Below, in pieces: positions 7,630 through 55,407 of a stretch of DNA of 64,000 nucleotides. Position numbers and translations under genes: made by a program. Origin of the DNA: a virus; the IMG/VR virus record IMGVR_UViG_3300010157_000062, positions 1-64,000 of that record; one strand, 5' to 3'. The notes below the pieces were generated by a model. That model searched no databases. It was not told where the DNA came from and worked only from the letters and a program-made list of their open reading frames with translations. How positions within the stretch are numbered: position 1 is the first letter of the stretch; each line of letters opens with the position of its first letter.

Positions 7630-7637
7630 TATTTATT
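7630..7637 (-). promoter_or_regulatory. Possible late promoter (AATAAATA)
   Basis: AATAAATA on the minus strand, 29 bp before the ATG of the 116-aa gene and overlapping the stop of the preceding fibre gene. It fits the relaxed nATAAATA late box of marine T4-like phages. Weak evidence on its own. Confidence 0.35.
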
Positions 7638-10600
7638 TGCTTTTTAATTCGGCAACTTCAGCTTTCAATTCCTTTACAGCTTGAATTAAGAACGCAACCA
7701 TTTTTTCATACTTAACGGCTTTGTATCCGTTGTCACGTGTTTGCACCAATACTGGAAGAACTTCTTCAATCTCTTGGGCAATAACACCAATATCACGTTC
7801 AGTTCTATCTGGATACATTCTCTGAGCAGTTTCATTCCAGTCGAAGTAAACACCACGGATTCCATCTAACATTTCTAATGCATTTGGAATTGTTTCGATG
7901 TTAGTCTTCAGATTTTTGTCAGAAGAATAAAACGCAGTAATGTCATTGTATGCTACGATAGTACCTGATGTTGAACCAGGGTTGGCAATACCGACACCAA
8001 GATAACCTAGTTGTATGTTAGCATTTGTTGCATAGTTTGGTCCGATTGGACCAATAGGTCCGATAGGTCCCTGAGGTCCAATAGGTCCAAGAGGTCCGAT
8101 AGGTCCAATAGGTCCTTGTGGCCCAATAGGCCCAATAGGTCCAAGAGGTCCTTGTGGCCCAATAGGCCCGATAGGTCCAAGAGGTCCTTGTGGCCCAATA
8201 GGCCCGATAGGTCCAAGAGGTCCAATTGGTCCAATAGGTCCCTGAGGTCCGATAGGTCCGATTGGCCCAATAGGTCCTTGTGGTCCAATGGGTCCAATAG
8301 GTCCTTGTGGTCCAATGGGTCCAATAGGTCCGATTGGTCCGATAGGTCCTTGTGGTCCAATGGGTCCAATGGGTCCGATGGGTCCTTGTGGTCCTGTTGG
8401 TCCAGATGGACCCTGTGGTCCTGTTGGTCCAGATGGACCCTGTGGTCCTGTTGGTCCTGTTGGTCCAATAGGTCCAATAGGTCCAATAGGTCCAATAGGT
8501 CCGATTGGTCCCTGTGGTCCTGTTGGTCCGATAGGTCCGATAGGTCCTTGTGGTCCAATATTACCTGCTCTTGTGAATTGCACTAGAACTAAATCGGTGT
8601 TTGTGAATGAACCTATAGATGTAATGTTTGTGAGACCAACAGTTCTATAACCTGTAGAATCTGTTACAGAAGAAACCGAGAATACTGCATATTTTGTTGT
8701 TGATGCACCAAAAACAGAGAGTCTGATGTAACCTTTAATTGCCGCATTTGATTGTCCCCACTCGGTCAACAATGCAGAAATGTCATTACCATATGTGTCT
8801 AGATTATCAAAATAACCAGCAGTTGCAGAACCAACTGTAAGGTTATTCAATCTGAATATGCCATTACCTGGATCGGCTGCTGTAACTGTTGTCGAATATA
8901 CTTGTGCAAAGACAACTGCGGCACCAGAATTCAATACGTTCGATGTAACTCTACCATCTGTATACAATTTCAAGTTTGTATTAGCAGTATCTGTGTATGA
9001 CTTTACTGCATTAGGTGTCGATGCTCTTGTTGCATTTGTATCGATAGAATCTTGTAGCTGGACAAGACCAGCGTTGGTTGTGTTAGCTGTATATTTTTCA
9101 GTAACAATAATAAATGCTGAGTTAGGATCAGCACCACCAATATCACGGAGTGCCCATGTTCTTGTTCCATTATTAAACTGAATTTGTGCATTTGGTGTGA
9201 ATGTTGCTAATCCTGCTTGTCTATTAACACCAAAAACTGCCGTTGCAGAACCTGTAATAGGTGAAGCACCTTTTAAGTTTAATGTATCAGAATCATAAAT
9301 TGTTGTACCATTGATAATGAAGTTACCCTTAACTGTCAAGTCATGGTTAACCATCGCATCATGTGTTTCGATTGAAGAATTTGCAAAAATTGATGTTGCA
9401 TTCACCATTGTAGACGCATAAACTATTGGTGTCGTAACATAGGAGTTGGATGATACTGAACCGACATTTAATGTTGTCGCAATTCTACCATAAGATGCTA
9501 CATTTAAGTTACCACCATTTAATGCAGTGTTAGCAGTAATCGTACCACCAACAACTGTTGTTACAGCAGATAAAGTTCCAACGTTACCTGTATTGGCTTG
9601 CATTAAACCAACAATGTTTGCTGATGATGCATTAATAGCATTAATAATGTTAGCAGAACCTGCGGATAATATTGTGTTGGCAGTGATTGTACCACCTAAC
9701 AGAGAAGTGTTAGCCACAATGGTGCCAATTCTAGCTGAGCCAGCATCAATACCATTAACGACATTGGCTGAACCAACATTGAGTTGTGTATTGGCAGTGA
9801 TTGTACCACCAACAACTGTTGTTACAGCGGATAGAGTTCCAACATTACCAGTATTAGCCTGCATTAGACCAATAATGTTTGCTGATGATGCATTAATTGC
9901 ATTGATAATATTTGCGGAACCACCAGAGAGTATAGTGTTAGCAGTGATTGTGCCACCGACCAATGATGTGTTGGCGATAATTGTGGCAATTCTAGCAGAG
10001 CCAGCATCCAATAATCCCACAACGTTAGCGGTGTTTGTATTCAGTTGTGTATTGGCAGTGATTGTACCACTAATAATAGATGTGTTGGCAACTAGAACTG
10101 CTGTAACTACACCAGTGTTGGCAACTAAACCTGCTGTTACGATTGTGTTGTTAGCAACAAGGCCGGCAGTTACGATAGTATTATTGGCAACTAAGCCTGC
10201 TGTAACTACACCAGTGTTAGCAACCAATGCCGCAGTTGTAATACCTGTGTTGGCAACCATGTTACCAACTTGTAAACGAGTAGAAAAAGATTCTGTAGTT
10301 GTTACATAACTATTAGAATTCAGTGACATTACATAAGCATTACTTGATGTATATAATGTGGCAGTATTTACAAATACGTTTGCAGAAATTGATCTAGCAT
10401 TAACTGCACCAGCAACGTTTGCCCAACCAGTATTAATTTCTAAGTTTGCAGTTAAATTTTGTGTGTAACTTGTAGAAGCATAAAGTGTTGGTGTCTGCAC
10501 CCATGTATTAGATACTAAATTGGCAACTCTTGTATTACCACCAACAATTAAACCATCAGCAATCCTTACGTTCGCACCAATGGTTGCGGAGTTTGAAACT

Positions 10601-10980
10601 ACGAGAGCAAGCCCTTTGGCATCAACACCTGTACCAGTAACAAACAAGTTTGCAATGTTGGCGGCACCATCAACTCTAAGACCTAGGGAACCAGATGCAT
10701 TGAAAGTTGTGTTGGCGGCACGAAGTACCCCAGTTGAAACTGTCAAATCATTTTGTACAACTGCTGAAGAACCAGTACCAGTTACTTGTAATTGTCCTTG
10801 TATGATTACATTATTTGCAACCTGTAGACCAGTTCCTGATGAATTGACAATGAATGTTCCTGTATTTTTAGTATAGTTATTTGCACCTATGTCATTGGTT
10901 TCCGCCAATACCTGGTTCGTTGTAACTACCCAATCGCCAAACGTGTTGGCATAACTTAGGGGTGTGATTTGATTAGCCAT
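7633..10980 (-). CDS. Tail fibre with collagen-like shaft and S74 chaperone domain (1115 aa)
   Basis: Three parts are visible. Residues 1-750 are beta-rich repeats (units such as [11 protein letters not shown] and [11 protein letters not shown]). Residues about 807-980 are Gly-Pro-Ile/Gln collagen-like triplets. Residues about 1019-1115 match the intramolecular chaperone (peptidase S74) domain: [11 protein letters not shown], then [12 protein letters not shown], then [19 protein letters not shown]. In the S74 family the domain trimerises the fibre and cuts itself off at the Ser-Asp of the SD(K/R)NLK motif. The start overlaps the end of the small coiled-coil gene upstream by 8 bp. Strong candidate for a host-recognition fibre. 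Confidence 0.92.
8038..8560 (-). repeat. Collagen-like (Gly-Pro-X)n coding repeat
   Basis: About 520 bp of GGNCCN hexamers encoding roughly 58 Gly-Pro-X triplets. Because GGNCC is palindromic, the opposite strand also reads Gly-Pro-X in one frame, producing spurious plus-strand ORFs here. Confidence 0.9.
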
Positions 10981-30223: not shown

Positions 30224-30855
30224 TATGAACCCATTACCGTTTTAAGTTGTTCTTCCATTTGATTCACATAATTTCTATCCATAACTTTTATTTCTCTTTT
30301 AGACTCATTAAGATTATATTCATAATCATATAACGTGACACTTCTTTTTGTGGCTCGCACAGAACAAGTCAAACCACTCGGTAATGTATATGTGTTATTT
30401 GTTTCCATAAATGAATTATATGCACCAACATCAAGTGGAATTATTTTTTCGGTTGATATTCCAGAATAACTGTCTGTTGTAATAATCACCTCTTGATATG
30501 CATAAACAGTTGTATTTGTATATTCATATGGTGTTTTTCCTGCATTCGCCGCTTCAGTTGCATACTTATTGTTAATATAAGTTAAAAATTGTTCATAATT
30601 TAATGGCCAACTCCAGATTGGATCCATAATTTGATTAGAGTACAATACAATCCAATATTTGTATGGATCATCATAATACTTTTCTGCAATAATTTCTGGT
30701 GTATCACCATCTTGTATATTGTATGTGTAAAACAACATTGGATTATTTTGCAATTCATCAATTAATTTTGCACGAGTTAGTATATTAGTCATTAAAATAT
30801 AATTGCCGTTTTGATCCGGTGTCAATACTTTTGGTAGTGTGTTGAAATATAACAT
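30223..30855 (-). CDS. gp53: Baseplate wedge protein gp53 (210 aa)
   Basis: The stretch TYNIQDGDTPEIIAEKYYDDPYKYWIVLYSNQIMDPIWSWPL is the gp53/LysM-like core of T4-type wedge proteins; gp53 links neighbouring wedges in the inner baseplate. I prefer the ATG at 30855, which overlaps the gp48 stop (TGATG); a TTG one codon upstream also reads in frame. Confidence 0.9.
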   Translation of the reverse strand: MLYFNTLPKVLTPDQNGNYILMTNILTRAKLIDELQNNPMLFYTYNIQDGDTPEIIAEKYYDDPYKYWIVLYSNQIMDPIWSWPLNYEQFLTYINNKYATEAANAGKTPYEYTNTTVYAYQEVIITTDSYSGISTEKIIPLDVGAYNSFMETNNTYTLPSGLTCSVRATKRSVTLYDYEYNLNESKREIKVMDRNYVNQMEEQLKTVMGS

Positions 30856-31952
30856 CAATAACCTTCTTTGATTTTGTTCTTATCGATGATGACAGTTTCA
30901 ATAAACTGTAATGTAAGTTTAATTTGAACTGGACTTCCATCATTGTGTGTTGCCCATGTGCCTGCACCAGCATAGTCAACATTTACGTTTGTAAGTACAG
31001 ATTCTCCGATTTTATGTACATTTGTGTTTTCGGCACCTTTGTAAAGGAATTGAATATCAAAAACGTCCGGTATTTTCATAAACAAACCTTGACTGAATAC
31101 ACCATTAGGTGATATTTCTGGTGCTGAGGCATATTTGAATTTTTCAATAATGTCTTTAATTGTATTTGCTTCTTCTTGTGAGTATGGTGTTAAAACAAAA
31201 TCAAACTGAAATTGTCTAAAGCCGATACCCCTGAACAACACTTGAAGTTGTGGGTTCATTGCATAACCACCTTGATTAAGAGCAACATCTTTTATATTTG
31301 TGCCAGCAACTTTATCAATTAAACTTGCGACAGCGGTACGAACAAACGGATCATTACCTGCTTTATTGATTGTATTGATTGCACTTTCTGAACCGGCATT
31401 TTTAAAAGTGTTAAATAGTGATACTGCACCTTGTGCTAAGAAATATGGTTTACCCAGTGCGTCTGTTAATGAAAACGTATCATCGTATTGTGCGCTATAA
31501 CTTACATTGACCGTGTCTGGCACATAAAGTGCAATAGAATCACCTATTTTACGGCTCAGTTTAGTGTTTGTTAGCGTACTTGTTGCCGATGCAAAAGTTT
31601 CCGCATTCTTACTACTACCAATGGCTTGACCTGCTTCTATGATCGTTTTTTGTGCGCCTTCAACATTACCTGTAGCTACTTGGGGTGCCGCAGTGCCTAA
31701 TGCGGTACCGCCTTCTGTAACAATTTTTGTACCTGATGTTGCTAAATCGGATAAAACTCCACCTAAATTACCTGGTTCGGGTGTTTTAATCGTAAACAGA
31801 ATTACATGCTGTCGTGTTGGATTTGAACCAACATCCCGCGGAAATCTATAGTTCGTCTTATCATACTTATTACCATACAGCAGGTTCAAAGGACCATTCA
31901 CAGCACCTGGAATGGAAATACCTGCAACTGAGGTCGGGATAGATATTGGCAT
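30855..31952 (-). CDS. gp48: Tail tube cap protein gp48-like (365 aa)
   Basis: The central segment (MNPQLQVLFRGIGFRQFQFDFVLTPYSQEEANTIKDIIEKFKY) is the tail-tube-like fold shared by gp48 and gp54, which cap the baseplate and start the tube. Because a separate gp54-like gene is present at 34803-35462, this longer one is best called gp48. The N-terminus (MPISIPTSVAGISIPGAVNG) is unusual and lacks a strong Shine-Dalgarno. It is the first gene of the left-going virion operon and has TATAAATA 32 bp upstream. Confidence 0.82.
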   Translation of the reverse strand: MPISIPTSVAGISIPGAVNGPLNLLYGNKYDKTNYRFPRDVGSNPTRQHVILFTIKTPEPGNLGGVLSDLATSGTKIVTEGGTALGTAAPQVATGNVEGAQKTIIEAGQAIGSSKNAETFASATSTLTNTKLSRKIGDSIALYVPDTVNVSYSAQYDDTFSLTDALGKPYFLAQGAVSLFNTFKNAGSESAINTINKAGNDPFVRTAVASLIDKVAGTNIKDVALNQGGYAMNPQLQVLFRGIGFRQFQFDFVLTPYSQEEANTIKDIIEKFKYASAPEISPNGVFSQGLFMKIPDVFDIQFLYKGAENTNVHKIGESVLTNVNVDYAGAGTWATHNDGSPVQIKLTLQFIETVIIDKNKIKEGY

Positions 31953-31983: not shown

Positions 31984-31991
31984 TATTTATA
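31984..31991 (-). promoter_or_regulatory. T4-type late promoter TATAAATA for the left-going virion operon
   Basis: Exact TATAAATA on the minus strand, 32 bp before the gp48 ATG, giving a leader of about 25 nt. Its last base overlaps the ATG of gp4 on the plus strand, so the two divergent operons abut here. It is the only late box between them. Confidence 0.6.
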
Positions 31992-32428
31992 TGGCATATT
32001 CAGGTAGATTTTCACCTAGAAACCCACAAAAATATCGTGGAGATTTCTCAAATATTGTGTACCGTTCCACTTGGGAATGTAGGGTTATGACTTGGCTCGA
32101 CAATAATGATTCAATTATCGAATGGGGTTCAGAAGAACTGGTGATACCGTACAGGTCTCCGGTAGACAACCGTGTTCACCGTTATTTTCCTGATTTTTAC
32201 GTGAAAGTTAAGCAAAAAGATGATACAATGAGGGTGATGATCTTAGAGGTAAAGCCTGCACGACAGACAAAACCACCGGAGAAAAAGAAGAAGGTCACCA
32301 AGCAATACATTCAAGAGGTGGTGACTTGGGGTATAAATGAAGCAAAATGGAAAGCCGCAACGGAATTCTGTCTCGACCGTGGCTGGACTTTTAAAGTATT
32401 AACTGAACATGATTTAGGATTGAAATGA
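31991..32428 (+). CDS. gp4: Head completion protein gp4 (145 aa)
   Basis: The start MAYSGRFSPRNPQKYRGD...YRSTWECRVMTWLDNN aligns with T4 gp4 (MAYSGKW...YRGD...YRSNWE...WLDKN), followed by IEWGSEELVIPY, RRYFPDFYVK-like and ILEVKPxxxTxPP segments and TWGINEAKWKAA. The ATG at 31991 is chosen because family members begin MAYSG; an upstream ATG at 31946 would add 15 unrelated residues. gp4 (with gp50/65 in T4) completes the filled head before tail joining and has a nuclease-like fold (E...D...EVK). Confidence 0.93.
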   Translation: MAYSGRFSPRNPQKYRGDFSNIVYRSTWECRVMTWLDNNDSIIEWGSEELVIPYRSPVDNRVHRYFPDFYVKVKQKDDTMRVMILEVKPARQTKPPEKKKKVTKQYIQEVVTWGINEAKWKAATEFCLDRGWTFKVLTEHDLGLK

Positions 32429-34188
32429 TTAGACTCCATGTATTGGCGGTGCCACATACAGCATCGACCAAAGAGTACACTGTTTGTGCGTTTACTCAAA
32501 AAGTAATTAACTTTTGTAAAATGTATAAAGAAATGGGAATGCATGTCATTCACTATGGTCATGAAGAATCTGACGTAATTTGTGATGAACATGTTACAGT
32601 AACAGATCGTGCTTTGCTTGAACGTGTTTACGGAATATATGATTGGAAGAATCAAGGCTTGAAATATAATCAGACTGATGAGGTCTTTCAAACGTTCAAT
32701 ACAAATTGTATCAAAGAGATTGAGAAGCGAAAGCAACCACATGATATCATACTCTGTTTCTTTGGGCTTGCTCAGAAACCAGTTTGTGATGCACATTCAG
32801 ACCTGCTATGTGTAGAACCATCAATTGGTTACCCCTCATCATTTGCACCTTACAAAGTATATGAATCGTATGCTGTGATGCATGGGCTTCAAGGTCCAGA
32901 TAAAGTATCAACTGCCGAATATAAATTCTATGACGCCGCTATACCCTCAGGTTTTGATTTAGATGAGTTTGAATTTAGAGAAAAAAAAGAAGATTACTTT
33001 ATGATGTGCGGCCGTTTAATGTGGTCTAAAGGTGTTGATATTGCATCTCAAGTCTGTGAAAAACTTGGTGTCAAGTTGATTCTAGCTGGTACAAGTTATG
33101 GTCCAAGTGACTGTAATCTCGGCACAGAATGGCCATCACATGTTGAATATGTTGGCTATGCTGACGTAGAGAAACGCAAGAAACTTATGGCTGGTGCAAA
33201 AGGTTTGTTCTGTCCAACAATCTATAATGAACCATTTGGATACGTTGCTATTGAAGCAATGCTGTCAGGAACACCCGTCATCACTGTTGATTGGGGTGCA
33301 TTCACCGAGACTGTGCAACACGGAGTTACTGGATTCCGTTGCCGTACATTTGAACAATTCTTATGGGCGGCTAAGAACATCGATACGATTTCACCACATG
33401 CTTGCCGGGAATGGGCAGAAGAAAACTACAATTTTAAGAAGATTGGTGGTATGTACAAAGAATACTTTGAATCTATTATCAATGTATCTAAAGGCACTGG
33501 CTGGTACACCGAGAACACTGAACGTAAAGAACTTGAATGGCTTACTAAGACACAACCGACACAACCAAAAACATTTAAAGAGATTTTAAATCAGTACAAC
33601 AGAATTAAAAATGATAAGATACACTTTCTACAGATTGGTGCCATGGATGGTGTAAAACATGATGATTTGTATCCTTATGTGATGAGTTATGATTGGACTG
33701 GTGTTCTAGTTGAACCACTACCAGATATGTTTGAAAAGTTGGTTGAAAATTACTTTCTTAAAAATGGTCTAAAGTTTGAAAATTCGGCTATTGCTAACAC
33801 AGAAGATGTTACAATTTATCGTGTTCCACAAGACAAAATTGGTGTTGATGGTGTTCCAGATTGGGCAGAAGGTTGTTCAACATTACTACCAAATAATCAC
33901 ATCGATGAAATCGTACCGCACATGGTTACCGAAAAGGTTAAAGGTGTTACTATTCAAAAACTATATGAAAAATATGGTAGAGAGTACGACTTCATTCAAA
34001 TTGACACAGAGGGTTATGATTATAACATCTTCCTCCAACTCTTGGAACAAGGCCTAACGGCTGACCTATACAAGATTGAGATTGCACACATCACCTACAC
34101 TAAAACCGTGTGGATGCGTTGGAAACTTGAACAACTTGGTTATAAGACTTTTATTGATAACTACGATTTAATTGCTTACCGATTCTAG
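32425..34188 (+). CDS. Bifunctional glycosyltransferase (GT4-type) / FkbM-family methyltransferase (587 aa)
   Basis: Residues 1-360 look like a GT-B glycosyltransferase: FMMCGRLMWSKGVDI near the nucleotide-sugar domain and YNEPFGYVAIEAMLSGTPVI at about residue 267, the E-x7-E motif of GT4 enzymes. Residues about 395-587 match FkbM-type SAM methyltransferases: HFLQIGAMDGVKHDD (glycine-rich SAM loop), GVLVEPLPDMF, then FIQIDTEGYDYNI at about 525. The start overlaps the gp4 stop by 4 bp (ATGA), and the next gene follows by 12 bp, so it is co-expressed with virion genes. Probable roles are modification of virion or host surface glycans, or of DNA; the substrate is not known. Confidence 0.88.
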   Translation: MIRLHVLAVPHTASTKEYTVCAFTQKVINFCKMYKEMGMHVIHYGHEESDVICDEHVTVTDRALLERVYGIYDWKNQGLKYNQTDEVFQTFNTNCIKEIEKRKQPHDIILCFFGLAQKPVCDAHSDLLCVEPSIGYPSSFAPYKVYESYAVMHGLQGPDKVSTAEYKFYDAAIPSGFDLDEFEFREKKEDYFMMCGRLMWSKGVDIASQVCEKLGVKLILAGTSYGPSDCNLGTEWPSHVEYVGYADVEKRKKLMAGAKGLFCPTIYNEPFGYVAIEAMLSGTPVITVDWGAFTETVQHGVTGFRCRTFEQFLWAAKNIDTISPHACREWAEENYNFKKIGGMYKEYFESIINVSKGTGWYTENTERKELEWLTKTQPTQPKTFKEILNQYNRIKNDKIHFLQIGAMDGVKHDDLYPYVMSYDWTGVLVEPLPDMFEKLVENYFLKNGLKFENSAIANTEDVTIYRVPQDKIGVDGVPDWAEGCSTLLPNNHIDEIVPHMVTEKVKGVTIQKLYEKYGREYDFIQIDTEGYDYNIFLQLLEQGLTADLYKIEIAHITYTKTVWMRWKLEQLGYKTFIDNYDLIAYRF

Positions 34189-34200
34189 ACTAAATAGAGG

Positions 34201-34803
34201 ATGGCTTCAACACTAACACAAATTGCTCAACAAAAGACTGCTCTGGAACAAACTTTTTTGTCCAGAAAGTCAGTCACATGGTTACAAGATAGAATGAAGA
34301 AATTGAAGTCTCCCATGGTTTTAGCCAAAGAGATAGCAAAAGAAAAATCAAGACAAGGTGGTATGTTTCAGATGGGTGGTTTGTACCACTTCTTCTATGA
34401 TCCACTTACTAAAAGAGACCTTCCTTATTATGATATTTTTCCGTTGGTAATTCCACTGAAAAAGAAAGACGATGGTTTTCTCGGTTTGAATTTACATTAT
34501 CTTCCACCAAAATACAGAGCCGCATTTCTCGATAAATTAATGGGTCTTGCTGTAATGACAGTAGATAATGAACCGCAACGATTACAAATAACGTATGAAA
34601 TTTTAGCGTCCACACAAAGATATAAAGAATTTAGACCTTGCCTGAAACACTACTTGAACCAGCAAATTAAGTCTAAAATTCTGACAGTGCAACCAGAAGA
34701 ATGGGAAACAGCACTATTTTTACCGACTGCGAACTTTATGAAAGCACCAATTTCACAAGTTCACAAAGAATCAATAGAAAAAGCAAACAGTAAGGTGTAC
34801 TAA
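34201..34803 (+). CDS. Conserved T4-like phage protein, possible DNA end protector (gp2-like) (200 aa)
   Basis: A central block (GGMFQMGGLYHFFYDPLTKRDLPYYDIFPLVIPL...DGFLGLNLHYLPPKYRAAFLDKLM) is strongly conserved in marine T4-like phages as I remember them; such proteins are sometimes labelled DNA end protector (gp2). No catalytic motif is visible. It lies between the glycosyltransferase-methyltransferase fusion and gp54 in a head/tail assembly operon, and overlaps the next start by 1 bp (TAATG). The gp2 name is uncertain. Confidence 0.6.
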   Translation: MASTLTQIAQQKTALEQTFLSRKSVTWLQDRMKKLKSPMVLAKEIAKEKSRQGGMFQMGGLYHFFYDPLTKRDLPYYDIFPLVIPLKKKDDGFLGLNLHYLPPKYRAAFLDKLMGLAVMTVDNEPQRLQITYEILASTQRYKEFRPCLKHYLNQQIKSKILTVQPEEWETALFLPTANFMKAPISQVHKESIEKANSKVY

Positions 34804-35462
34804 TGGCCGGCTCAATAGCAGAATTCAAATCCAGTTTTTCAAAAGAACTTGCGAGACCAAGTAAGTTCGATGTTAACATTCCAGTACCACTTGGGCTGGT
34901 CCCTTATCGTGGAACATCAAGAATGCTTACAATGCGTTGTGAGAACGCAGAGTTACCTGGTCGCACGATTGCCACAACATCAATGAAGATTTATGGTGTT
35001 GAGGAGAAATTCCCATATATGTCATCATACAATGATATGTCACTCACTTTTATTGTGTCTGATGATATGAAAGAAAAGAAGTTCTTTGATGCATGGCTCA
35101 ACTGGATTAATCCAAATTCAAGTTACAATTTGAAATACAAACAAGATTATTCTGTTGCACTTAGAATCAATCAGTATGACGTTGAAAATCAAGTTTCATA
35201 TTCGGTTGATTTGATTGATGCATTCCCTATTGCCGTAAATGGTATGGATTTAAATTGGTCTTCTGATGGTTATCACAAACTCACCGTGACTTTTGCATAC
35301 ACAAGCTGGCGCGATAACTCATTAGAAACTCTTGCAATGGATTATTTGGAGAACGTGATTGCAGATTCGATGTTTACACCTCGACCATTAACTGGTTTCG
35401 ATGTAAATTCAACCTTTGTACAAGCACCCGGTGAAGCAGGCAGACCTGGTTTTCTTGGATAA
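34803..35462 (+). CDS. gp54: Baseplate tail-tube initiator, gp54-like (219 aa)
   Basis: A tail-tube (gp19/gp54) fold is suggested by RPSKFDVNIPVPLGLVPYRG, RCENAELPGRTIATTSMKIYG, FIVSDDMKEKKFFDAWLNWINP and a C-terminal LTVTFAYTSWRDN. In T4, gp54 with gp48 caps the baseplate and templates the tube. It could alternatively be a tube-like protein, but the major tube gene would normally lie near the sheath gene, which is not in this window. Confidence 0.75.
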   Translation: MAGSIAEFKSSFSKELARPSKFDVNIPVPLGLVPYRGTSRMLTMRCENAELPGRTIATTSMKIYGVEEKFPYMSSYNDMSLTFIVSDDMKEKKFFDAWLNWINPNSSYNLKYKQDYSVALRINQYDVENQVSYSVDLIDAFPIAVNGMDLNWSSDGYHKLTVTFAYTSWRDNSLETLAMDYLENVIADSMFTPRPLTGFDVNSTFVQAPGEAGRPGFLG

Positions 35463-43088: not shown

Positions 43089-43310
43089 TTATTCGTTAGA
43101 AACGAAAGCATTAAGTAATTTTGCTTTGGCAATAATTTCTTTTTCAGTAGGATACGCTACCAATACTGGTACGGGAAGCGATTTATCAACTTCAGAACTA
43201 CGATGCCATTGTTCCATTAGCATTTCTTTTTTAATGTGAAAGTCTTGTGTTACCAAGTCCTTTGCCATGTCTAAAAGACTTAAACGGATTTCAAAAGGTG
43301 TTTTACTCAT
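43089..43310 (-). CDS. Conserved phage protein of unknown function (73 aa)
   Basis: Begins MSKTPFEIRLSLLDMAKDLV, a start I recognise from small proteins of marine T4-like phages, and is mainly helical with a hydrophilic C-terminus (PTEKEIIAKAKLLNAFVSNE). Ribosome site AAGGAG. It is bracketed by two identical 40-bp repeats, the upstream one being the 3' part of the tmRNA, so the gene may have been inserted or duplicated together with that segment. Confidence 0.7.
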   Translation of the reverse strand: MSKTPFEIRLSLLDMAKDLVTQDFHIKKEMLMEQWHRSSEVDKSLPVPVLVAYPTEKEIIAKAKLLNAFVSNE

Positions 43311-43344
43311 AAGATTTCTCCTTGTGTGTGAGTGTGTGTTTACT

Positions 43345-43646
43345 AAAATGGTAGGTTATTCTGTTACGAGGAAACCTACCGAAACCCTAGTCAGCGTTTA
43401 GGCTGCCAATGCGAACTGTGAGTCGTTTGCGTTTACTTGGTTTTAGTTTTTACATCTTCTCTGATGAGTTGTCCACTTCTGTACTTGTTGCTCTGTCGAA
43501 TACTGAGTACACCCCCATCAAAGTAACACTAACCATAGTATCGGCATCTGCTTTCTGGGTCTACTACAGAAAATATTACTTTGGTGGAGGTGGGGGGATT
43601 TGCACCCCCGTCCAGAACACTTTTCTAGTTGCTTCATACAACCATA
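43345..43646 (-). ncRNA. ssrA: Circularly permuted (two-piece) tmRNA, tag ANDSQFALAA
   Basis: Transcribed leftwards. First comes the acceptor piece (about 43646-43582), ending GGACGGGGG-TGCAAAT-CCCCCC-ACCTCCACCA: T-arm, acceptor strand and encoded CCA. A 65-nt intervening segment follows (43581-43517). The coding piece starts at 43516 with GGGGGTG, which pairs over 7 bp (one G-U) with CACCTCC of the acceptor piece; CAGAGCA in the coding piece pairs with TGTTCTG just before the T-arm (helix P2). The tag reading frame at 43430-43398 is GCA AAC GAC TCA CAG TTC GCA TTG GCA GCC TAA. The coding piece ends in a hairpin that is one copy of the 40-bp repeat. Permuted ssrA is known from alphaproteobacteria, some betaproteobacteria and cyanobacteria. 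The T-loop has G where U55 is usual. Role: ribosome rescue and tagging. Confidence 0.92.
43349..43388. repeat. 40-bp direct repeat, copy 2 (3' part of tmRNA coding piece)
   Basis: Identical to 43041-43080, 308 bp away, and hairpin-forming. It begins 9 bases after the tag stop codon and probably forms the 3' structural end of the tmRNA coding piece. Confidence 0.95.
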
Positions 43647-43652
43647 ACTACT

Positions 43653-43681
43653 ATTATAGCAGGTTTTTATTCAGTTGTCAA
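43653..43681 (-). promoter_or_regulatory. Consensus sigma-70 promoter of the tmRNA
   Basis: TTGACA (43681-43676), 17-bp spacer, TATAAT (43658-43653): perfect match to the bacterial consensus, placing the transcription start near 43646, the 5' end of the acceptor piece. It differs from the TTGCCA promoters of the early genes. Confidence 0.92.
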
Positions 43682-43698
43682 GTGATATTTTGGTAATA

Positions 43699-46679: not shown

Positions 46680-47264
46680 TTATAAATTAAATACAATAGA
46701 GATTCGTGGATCGGTTGATTGATTAGGCATAACTTCGTGATAGAGCCATGCTGGCCACATCAATAGAAGACCCGGACAAGGTTCATATTCATATTGTGAC
46801 ATTGCATACCAATTTGTTGGATCTTTTACATGAAAGAAATAATCATAAAAATCTCTAAATGGTTGGTTTGGTGTGAACTTAATCTTTGATGAACCTGGTG
46901 GTGTTTGTAGGTAGAAAATACCTGAGATGGTACACTGTGAATGTACATGCCTTGGATGGCTACTTCCCTCTTTAAAAGAATTTAAAAAGAAATAAGGATT
47001 AAACTTAACAGAGTGTGGTTCGAAACCCTGTTTTTCAAGAAACTCATGTCCTTTATTGATAATGAAATCACCAAAACCCAAATATTTTGGATCATTTCTT
47101 ATATCGATTCCCGTTCCATGTGTAGTTCGACCATTGTGATAAAATGAATCGTTTGTGTTCGTAGCATTCTCAAAATAATCTTTAACAACAGGTAATAGTG
47201 CATCGGACCAATTTTTATGTTGTTCGACACCAACAACAGAAGGAAATAATGAGTCCAATCTCAT
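46680..47264 (-). CDS. 2OG-Fe(II) oxygenase family protein (194 aa)
   Basis: Fits the phage TIGR02466-type oxygenases: FNPYFFLNSFKEGSSHPRHVHSQCTISGIFYLQTPPGSSKI supplies the first iron ligands, and PGLLLMWPAWLYHEVMPNQSTDPRISIVFNL the distal histidine and the arginine that binds 2-oxoglutarate. Such genes are frequent in cyanophages and pelagiphages; the substrate (protein, nucleotide or lipid) is unknown. Confidence 0.85.
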   Translation of the reverse strand: MRLDSLFPSVVGVEQHKNWSDALLPVVKDYFENATNTNDSFYHNGRTTHGTGIDIRNDPKYLGFGDFIINKGHEFLEKQGFEPHSVKFNPYFFLNSFKEGSSHPRHVHSQCTISGIFYLQTPPGSSKIKFTPNQPFRDFYDYFFHVKDPTNWYAMSQYEYEPCPGLLLMWPAWLYHEVMPNQSTDPRISIVFNL

Positions 47265-48764: not shown

Positions 48765-49565
48765 TCACGGTACGACATAACCTTTTTCTTTAAGGTTTTC
48801 AATGTCCATTTCAAAATAGGGATATAGTATTGTAGCAGAAACAATAGGTGTTGTCAATACCATTTCTTGAATATTTTCAGGCCATCTGCCCTCCATTTCG
48901 GTAAATTTCCATTTGTATAGGAAATTAGCCCACGAAAGTTCTCTGTATTTGTGTGAACGGGATTGTTCCTCATACCGTTCAGAATGTGGTTCTGGACGTT
49001 TAGCGAGATGTTGTGTTGGTTTCCATACACGACCATGTGCAAAATCATTGATTGAAGATTTTTCTGGTAAATATTTGATTGCTCGAAGGAAATAATCACC
49101 TTCACCAAATCCATAGTGAAAGCGTTCATCCCACATGCCAATCTTCTTTACTGCGTTTGGTGTATATGCACACACCATATCACCAGCATCATCAGCATAG
49201 AAGTCAAAGTCTTTCATCACTTTGAGTAGTTGTGGAATCCAATCATAATTCCATACTGTATCATCTTGGACAGTGACAACAATATCTGCATCAGGCTCAT
49301 TTAGATTTTTGAAACCGTGAATGATTGCCATGTTCCACATACGTGCAAGCATTGCGGTTGCAAAGTCTGGAGTTCCACGATTGTGTATCACATTTACATG
49401 TGGTGCAAACCGTGGATCGATTGTGAAATTTGTATGATTGTTGATGACGTTAACGTGAATGTCAACACCTTCTGGTATAGGATTAAAACCTTCAAATAAC
49501 GTATGAAGGTTTACTTCCAGTGCTACTGGATCCTGCCACGTTACAATGAAGATTTTAATTCTCAT
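48765..49565 (-). CDS. GT-A (GT2-like) glycosyltransferase (266 aa)
   Basis: N-terminal MRIKIFIVTWQDPVALEVNLHTLFEG is the nucleotide-sugar-binding beta-alpha start of GT2-type enzymes; the acidic motif TVQDDTVW near residue 100 takes the place of DxD; MWDERFHYGFGEGDYFLRAI resembles the acceptor-site ED/GEGD region. No membrane segment. It may act with the fused glycosyltransferase at 32425 or modify phage/host components on its own. Confidence 0.8.
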   Translation of the reverse strand: MRIKIFIVTWQDPVALEVNLHTLFEGFNPIPEGVDIHVNVINNHTNFTIDPRFAPHVNVIHNRGTPDFATAMLARMWNMAIIHGFKNLNEPDADIVVTVQDDTVWNYDWIPQLLKVMKDFDFYADDAGDMVCAYTPNAVKKIGMWDERFHYGFGEGDYFLRAIKYLPEKSSINDFAHGRVWKPTQHLAKRPEPHSERYEEQSRSHKYRELSWANFLYKWKFTEMEGRWPENIQEMVLTTPIVSATILYPYFEMDIENLKEKGYVVP

Positions 49566-54220: not shown

Positions 54221-55381
54221 TTAGAATGGTACTTCATCATTAGGTGAATATGTTGGTACAGGTCCGGCATTTGCCTCTGCAACTTTAACATCAACCTTTG
54301 AATACAGGTCAAGGAAAGAATCCTTGGTTTCTTGGTCAAAACGATTCACACAGAGTTGAATTGCCTTTTGACGATCTTTAAAGATTGCATAGGTCTTTGA
54401 AATGTGTACCAAACGGCGAGTAGAGATAATTTCATCAACACCACCTTCGGCAAATGTTTTACGGATAACATCAGCCCACTTTACAAGATTCTCCGCAAAC
54501 TCATCATCATTCAATAATGGTTTCAGAATCTTGAGTTCGACTTTGGCTTCAGGATATTCCTGTTCTACGGTAATATTGAAACGTTCAAGGAACGCATCAT
54601 CAAGAATTTGTGAGAGGTAGCGACCTTCTTCGGAGCCACGGCCCTTGGTGTTTGCGGTGGCAACAACGTTGAAGCCACGTTTTGGATAAATGTACTCGCC
54701 AGACTTTTTGTTGAAGTAAGGTTTGCCCTCCAGAATACCTTGGAGACACATCAGTTTGTTGGAGCCACGGTCAACTTCGTCAATCAATAGGATTGCACCA
54801 CGTTTCATGGCAGTCATAACAGGACCATCACGGTACACCACGTTACCATCGACCAGTGTTGGACCACCAATCAGGTCAGATTCATCAGTCTCAACGGAGA
54901 TATTCACACGGATGCATTCACGTTTGAGTGTAGCACACACTTGTTCAACCATCAGTGTCTTACCGTTTCCTGACATACCAGTAATAAACACAGGGAAGAA
55001 TTCCTGTGATAGCACGATTGAAGTCAGGTCTTTGTAGAAACCAAAAGGAACATAGCCTTGGTATTTTTCGGGAATAGAAGTGTCTGCATGGTCTTCAAGT
55101 TTCTTTTGACGGAGAACATGAACGGTTGCAGTTTGTGCCATATCAACAGTTGAGGCTTCTTCAACAACAGTTGTGGTTGCAACAGGACGCACGGTATCAG
55201 GTGCATCAGGCAAACGATATTGGCCACGATTCGAACGGAATTCTTGACGGGTAACAAACCAGAAGGGATAAGGAACAGAACGTTCATCAACAACGTGTTG
55301 AATTTGGTCACGGCTCAAAATTGCATTCTCGCCAAAAATCTCAGTAGCGGCTTGGACGAATGCTTTTGCATTACGATTCAT
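54221..55381 (-). CDS. AAA+ ATPase, MoxR/CobS-like (386 aa)
   Basis: Walker A ITGMSGNGKTLM near residue 135, Walker B AILLIDEVDRGSNKLMCLQG near 195, sensor 1 NVVATANTKGRGSEEGRY, sensor 2/arginine LDDAFLERFNITVEQEYP. AAA_5 (CobS/MoxR) type, chaperone-like remodelling ATPase. The ATG at 55381 is preferred because GGAG lies 7 bp upstream and the predicted transcript starts at about 55401. Confidence 0.9.
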   Translation of the reverse strand: MNRNAKAFVQAATEIFGENAILSRDQIQHVVDERSVPYPFWFVTRQEFRSNRGQYRLPDAPDTVRPVATTTVVEEASTVDMAQTATVHVLRQKKLEDHADTSIPEKYQGYVPFGFYKDLTSIVLSQEFFPVFITGMSGNGKTLMVEQVCATLKRECIRVNISVETDESDLIGGPTLVDGNVVYRDGPVMTAMKRGAILLIDEVDRGSNKLMCLQGILEGKPYFNKKSGEYIYPKRGFNVVATANTKGRGSEEGRYLSQILDDAFLERFNITVEQEYPEAKVELKILKPLLNDDEFAENLVKWADVIRKTFAEGGVDEIISTRRLVHISKTYAIFKDRQKAIQLCVNRFDQETKDSFLDLYSKVDVKVAEANAGPVPTYSPNDEVPF

Positions 55382-55407
55382 AAAGTTCTCCATAATAAGA
55401 TGTTTCT

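Follow-up and report, generated by a model that had tools for sequence, protein, structure and literature searches.

A predicted GT4-FkbM fusion enzyme encoded amid virion assembly genes in a lineage of aquatic T4-like phages

The fusion gene and its predicted domains

The 64,000-nucleotide stretch of viral DNA analysed here (hereafter the window) encodes, amid genes for the head, tail and baseplate, a protein in which a putative glycosyltransferase (GT) is followed by a putative methyltransferase. The locus has the following layout.

30855-31952, minus strand: gp54 baseplate tail tube cap, divergent from gp4 (by synteny with annotated cyanophages)
31991-32428, plus strand: gp4 head completion/closure protein (ORF listed from 31946), whose stop overlaps the ATG of the fusion
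32425-34188, plus strand: GT4-FkbM fusion protein of 587 aa (ORF, Pfam, PHROG and NCBIfam)
32425-33510, plus strand: predicted GT4 domain of the fusion, aa 1-362 (R197, K202, E269-x7-E277; GT-B fold)
33511-33609, plus strand: linker, aa 363-395, the first part of which (as far as about aa 378) resembles the end of the GT-only alleles, their C-terminal tail
33610-34185, plus strand: predicted FkbM methyltransferase domain, aa 396-587 (GAMDG motif, VEP, Q-x-D-x-EG-x-D)
34201-34803, plus strand: gp2 DNA end protector, directly 3' of the fusion
34803-35462, plus strand: tail tube protein

A baseplate hub gene comes after the tail tube gene, also on the plus strand, and gp53 lies with gp54 upstream of gp4 on the opposite strand, as in the annotated cyanophages S-WAM1 and S-SZBM1, in which the gene after gp4 encodes only about 155 aa (the S-SZBM1 copy is annotated as DNA end protector). 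This arrangement bears out the head/tail assembly operon recognised in an earlier note on this DNA, which had also proposed that the fusion is translated with gp4, as would be expected from the 4-nt overlap between its ATG start codon and the gp4 stop (gp4 ends at 32428). A late-promoter-like motif, (T)ATAAATA/ACTAAATA, precedes gp2 throughout the lineage; in the window, exact TATAAATA occurs at a frequency not above chance.

That a GT4-type domain and a SAM methyltransferase domain are joined in the product of ORF 32425-34188, as had been read from the letters, is agreed upon by Pfam, NCBIfam and PHROG. Glycos_transf_1 matches residues 184-308 (E 3.8e-18, above the curated cut-off) and the glycosyltransferase family PHROG 3408 spans residues 2-364 (E 2e-124), while Methyltransf_21/FkbM (PF05050) covers residues 403-573 (E 3.5e-11, 44 bits for a cut-off of 22.7) and TIGR01444 fkbM_fam scores 45.1 bits for a cut-off of 37.7. 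The fusion is genuine, and not the result of chance or of faulty assembly, since full-length homologues with no internal stops are found in the same gp4-fusion-gp2 order in more than 40 metagenome viral contigs, the methyltransferase halves being 54-100% identical and the GT halves 75-100%.

The earlier note was to be abandoned if both domains lacked catalytic residues; the motifs are intact in both. R197 and K202 (donor-binding) and E269-x7-E277 are invariant across nine diverse GT relatives, and the same four residues (R197, K202, E269, E277) also align to the solved GT4 structure 7fg9. The FkbM half retains, down to 32% identity, GAMDG (SAM motif I), VEP (which supplies the acidic ribose-binding residue) and QxDxEGxD (the IDxEG motif), that is, the features by which the FkbM family is recognised in sequence. 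The full-length model is of moderate quality (pLDDT 71.3, with low-confidence stretches in the GT half), and the fold search made with it was filled by GT matches, the GT half being closest to the GT4 enzyme tll1591 (VIA Z 23.9, 311 aligned residues, rmsd 3.6; Foldseek E 2e-15). In the fold check that had been proposed for both halves, the GT half thus folds like a solved GT4, and the FkbM half, for which a sequence search of solved structures gave no meaningful match, owes its assignment to HMMs. We regard the N-terminal domain as a predicted retaining GT4 glycosyltransferase of GT-B fold and the C-terminal domain as a predicted FkbM family methyltransferase.

The next-nearest solved structures after tll1591 are cyanobacterial tetrahydrobiopterin glucosyltransferases (Z 22-23), and the phage glycosyltransferase HY126 is also among the structure matches of the GT half (Z 19.8), which would suit an enzyme that adds sugars to the bases of phage DNA or to some small molecule (e.g. 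a pteridine), the FkbM half methylating the product. Such a role is very unlikely in our opinion, in view of (i) the late structural placement of the gene, (ii) the repeated methyltransferase fusions and fibre-gene linkage described below and (iii) eight lineage records (possibly fragments, one of them 166 kb) in which no hydroxymethyl-base route was seen, with no member of the thymidylate synthase/dCMP hydroxymethylase family (PF00303).

One lineage and its optional methyltransferase half

The phages that carry this gene form a lineage of aquatic T4-like phages, in which the GT half is always kept and the methyltransferase half varies between close relatives. Among gp4 relatives that are at least 73% identical, the GT lies between gp4 and gp2 in 19 of 19 loci, 12 with a methyltransferase and seven counted as GT-only (although three of these seven sit on contigs that end inside the GT). 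None of the 46 loci with gp4 relatives less than 73% identical shows it: in 45, gp2 comes after gp4 and the 3 kb that were read contain no GT, and the remaining one, a short contig end, also shows gp2. In this gp4 sample, a GT gene between gp4 and gp2 is therefore exclusive to the lineage of the window, and the simplest reading is a single insertion at that site, retained since.

The METHYLTRANSFERASE (methyltransferase) half is optional, the GT stopping at 381 aa in L027-L032, L040, L091 and L093-L096, where gp2 begins a few nt after its end. These solo alleles have a common tail (NDSRTEL-x-WLTKIHP) that differs from the linker of the fusions. In the GT tree, they occupy three positions within the fusion clade, and L108 is basal; L091 is sister of L006_fusion (support 97/98), and supports are 96/70 for L028-L030 and 100/96 for L032/L096. 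L091 is a mosaic, with a tail identical to that of L028 up to the stop and a gp2 that matches the gp2 of the fusion phage L006 at 98% identity. Since solo alleles branch within the fusions and include a mosaic, the methyl cap is apparently exchanged by recombination: swapping of alleles with and without the methyltransferase fits best, although mosaic alleles, which derive from metagenome assemblies, might conceivably be assembly chimaeras. L036 and L037, in which the GT is partly missing, were set aside as probable assembly deletions; both deletions end at about the same point, before VITVDWGAFTE, the gp2 of L036 is also gapped, and their artefact status is not proven.

A methyltransferase half that is missing from several alleles, and less conserved than its partner, might be an inessential passenger under weak constraint, attached to a functional GT. 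We find this quite improbable, for its SAM motifs are kept throughout and its dN/dS is 0.02-0.11 (0.02-0.055 in the GT half), values that place both halves under strong purifying selection. As for its origin, searches with the FkbM half gave one weak match only in isolated phages and, in one genome per bacterial species, pattern matches with no confirmed relative.

Relatives of the glycosyltransferase and fibres of the window

The same GT is found in other phages, where it is fused to a different, unrelated methyltransferase, Methyltransf_23, in L130, L141 and L144 (assigned in L144 by sequence likeness to L081), and L081 has GT, Methyltransf_23 and FkbM in one 765-aa chain. The fusions to Methyltransf_23 are independent of the GT4-FkbM fusion. 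In the cyanophages S-CAM7, ACG-2014f and S-CBWM1, a PHROG 3408 GT of the same family (30-52% identical to that of the fusion) lies beside collagen-like fibre genes but, unlike the fusion, it is stand-alone, lacks a methyltransferase and lies outside the gp4-gp2 interval. In five lineages (S-CAM7, ACG-2014f, L117, L135 and L145), the GT has a 2OG-Fe(II) oxygenase gene next to it or nearby.

Outside the lineage of the window, GT4 is within 6 kb of a collagen-like run in eight of the eight records tested (one per lineage, only records with a collagen run being admitted); the product of the covered genome fractions for these eight is 3.8e-7, for a distance of 6 kb that was chosen after viewing the data. 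In three lineages (L139/L143, L142 and L144), no collagen run comes as close as 6 kb to GT4. In L139, L140 and L143, GT4 stands in a block with sugar epimerase-like and sugar C-methyltransferase-like (Methyltransf_13/14) genes, which together might supply nucleotide sugars. In the unrelated siphovirus contig L086 (7589-9159, plus strand), FkbM and GT genes lie between two genes placed by position only, one directly before them where the major capsid gene usually is and the other where the connector gene usually is.

The window has fibres and a second GT of its own, as well as a possible oxygenase.

7633-10980, minus strand: fibre protein with 59 collagen-like G-X-Y triplets in a run (8035-8565), Thr-poor, a candidate acceptor
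46680-47264, minus strand: TIGR02466 family protein, with a weak 2OG-Fe(II) oxygenase match
48765-49565, minus strand: second glycosyltransferase, of predicted GT-A fold (fold match), conserved in the lineage

Neither the window nor the 166-kb relative has a collagen-like run near the fusion gene, the closest being 24-25 kb away. GPI/GPQ triplets predominate among the G-X-Y repeats of the window, where Thr takes up about 11% of Y positions, compared with 32-83% Thr where GT4 adjoins a fibre elsewhere. Because these repeats are Thr-poor, the collagen-fibre target may not carry over to the lineage of the window, for which Thr-rich collagen as acceptor is unsupported. The fibre proteins at 1576-2409 and 7633-10980 (both on the minus strand) have long GPI/GPQ/GPT runs in which 92% of X positions are proline, in contrast to the Thr-rich GAT-type repeats of other aquatic phages.

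The second GT, about 15 kb from the fusion gene, has only a sub-threshold Pfam match (E 0.11), and 37 viral contigs encode a relative of it. The confident model obtained for it (pLDDT 86.5) resembles the GT-A enzymes K4CP and SpsA (VIA Z 15.0 and 13.9, respectively), a predicted fold that upholds the GT-A type given to it in the earlier note.

Elsewhere in the window, a permuted (two-piece) tmRNA gene (43307-43695, minus strand; tag ANDSQFALAA) matches Rfam beta_tmRNA over its full length (122.8 bits), as well as tmRNA_permuted. A beta-type tmRNA hints at a betaproteobacterial host, though the virion genes are nearest to those of cyanophages; there is a precedent for such disagreement between tmRNA type and host in the methylophage Melnitz (PMC9004378). 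Searching for the host with the tag peptide returned one short contig with tRNAs and a ClpP-like ORF, which is possibly phage-derived. The window also has a CobS-like porphyrin biosynthesis gene (54221-55393, minus strand; PHROG 249, E 1e-109) and no tRNAs.

Methyl-capped virion glycans as a proposed function

To our knowledge, few tailed phages have been shown to glycosylate their particles, and what this does for them is poorly understood. With moderate confidence, we propose that the fusion is a bifunctional cytosolic enzyme that builds a methyl-capped glycan, likeliest on a virion protein. Produced alongside late virion proteins, it would (i) move a sugar from a nucleotide-sugar donor onto an acceptor through its N-terminal GT4 domain and (ii) O-methylate a hydroxyl of the added sugar, or of its neighbour, through its FkbM domain, which would cap the glycan. 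The target would be a late structural protein, such as one of the tail fibre, that receives the glycan in the course of assembly or beforehand, and the existence of relatives with and without the methyl cap would make the cap a swappable 'glyco-type' trait. In this model we infer the sugar, the position of methylation, the acceptor and the benefit.

Methyl-capped glycans on virion proteins or on the host surface were the products that had been envisaged for this gene. The cap remains the natural reading, because both domains have intact catalytic motifs, fusion of the GT to methyltransferases has recurred and there is a precedent in the chlorovirus protein A064R (see below). Of the two acceptors, a virion protein is favoured by context, that is, by the position of the gene, by the lack of membrane segments and by the linkage of homologues to fibre genes. 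A hydropathy scan found no membrane segment in the fusion (the highest 19-residue value, 1.19, is inside the GT core), which is thus not the membrane-embedded glycosyltransferase of phage O-antigen (Gtr) conversion systems; nor did gtrA/gtrB partner genes appear among its neighbours.

This absence also speaks against a host surface role, in which the enzyme would add a sugar and an O-methyl group to a surface polysaccharide and so block adsorption of competing phages, as does the location of the gene, which overlaps gp4 and is flanked by late virion genes instead of early or host-takeover ones. Enzymes of the GT4 and FkbM kinds are, however, common in polysaccharide synthesis, GT-only and fusion alleles could track host strains, and in L139/L143 the GT4 keeps company with the epimerase-like and C-methyltransferase-like genes mentioned above. 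Surface modification has moreover been proposed for glycosyltransferases of pelagimyophages, which are related aquatic myophages (PMC7029224). With GT homologues clustering with fibre genes, and the GT kept in every sampled member of the lineage, we see a host surface target as possible but rather unlikely.

The closest functional precedent for an enzyme of the proposed kind is A064R of chlorovirus PBCV-1, a GT-GT-methyltransferase chain biochemically proven to make the methylated end of the virion glycan; a variant truncated in its third (methyltransferase) domain defines antigenic class F (PMC9614988). Both proteins combine viral GT and SAM methyltransferase in one chain, and the class F truncation resembles the GT-only alleles described here. 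The likeness is one of layout and proposed function: A064R, from a eukaryotic virus, has two small GT domains, one GT-A and the other of a new family, and a class I methyltransferase, whereas the fusion would join a GT4 (GT-B) to an FkbM domain in a tailed phage. Mimivirus L230, which hydroxylates and glucosylates a collagen-like protein (PMC9614988), shares the logic of the hydroxylase-GT4-collagen neighbourhoods of related phages; it differs in its GT family, in being a lysyl hydroxylase and in having no methyltransferase, and the fusion gene of the window is not linked to the collagen-like fibre encoded there. Viral use of prolyl 4-hydroxylase has been termed cryptic (PMC9301287). The report, as cited in PMC11256854, that the major capsid protein of mycobacteriophage Che8 is glycosylated by phage-coded GTs concerns different phages and different genes, and is the point of likeness. 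In the open-licence papers searched, we found no GT4-FkbM fusion at a virion-assembly locus that also has natural alleles without the cap.

A wider proposal, which we advance tentatively and consider unlikely as it stands, is that tailed phages have a modular fibre pathway leading from a hydroxylase to GT4 to an interchangeable methyltransferase, in which gain or loss of the methyltransferase by recombination would switch the virion glycan 'serotype' in natural populations.

In conclusion, this locus suggests that the phages of this lineage decorate their own particles and vary the decoration. Near-identical aquatic phages with and without the predicted methyl cap, at one locus and with allele exchange, offer a natural comparison, and the sister families have cultured members (S-CAM7, ACG-2014f), which makes the virion-glycan idea directly testable. 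If true, the modular pathway would be a prokaryotic counterpart of chlorovirus antigenic classes and of viral collagen glycosylation.
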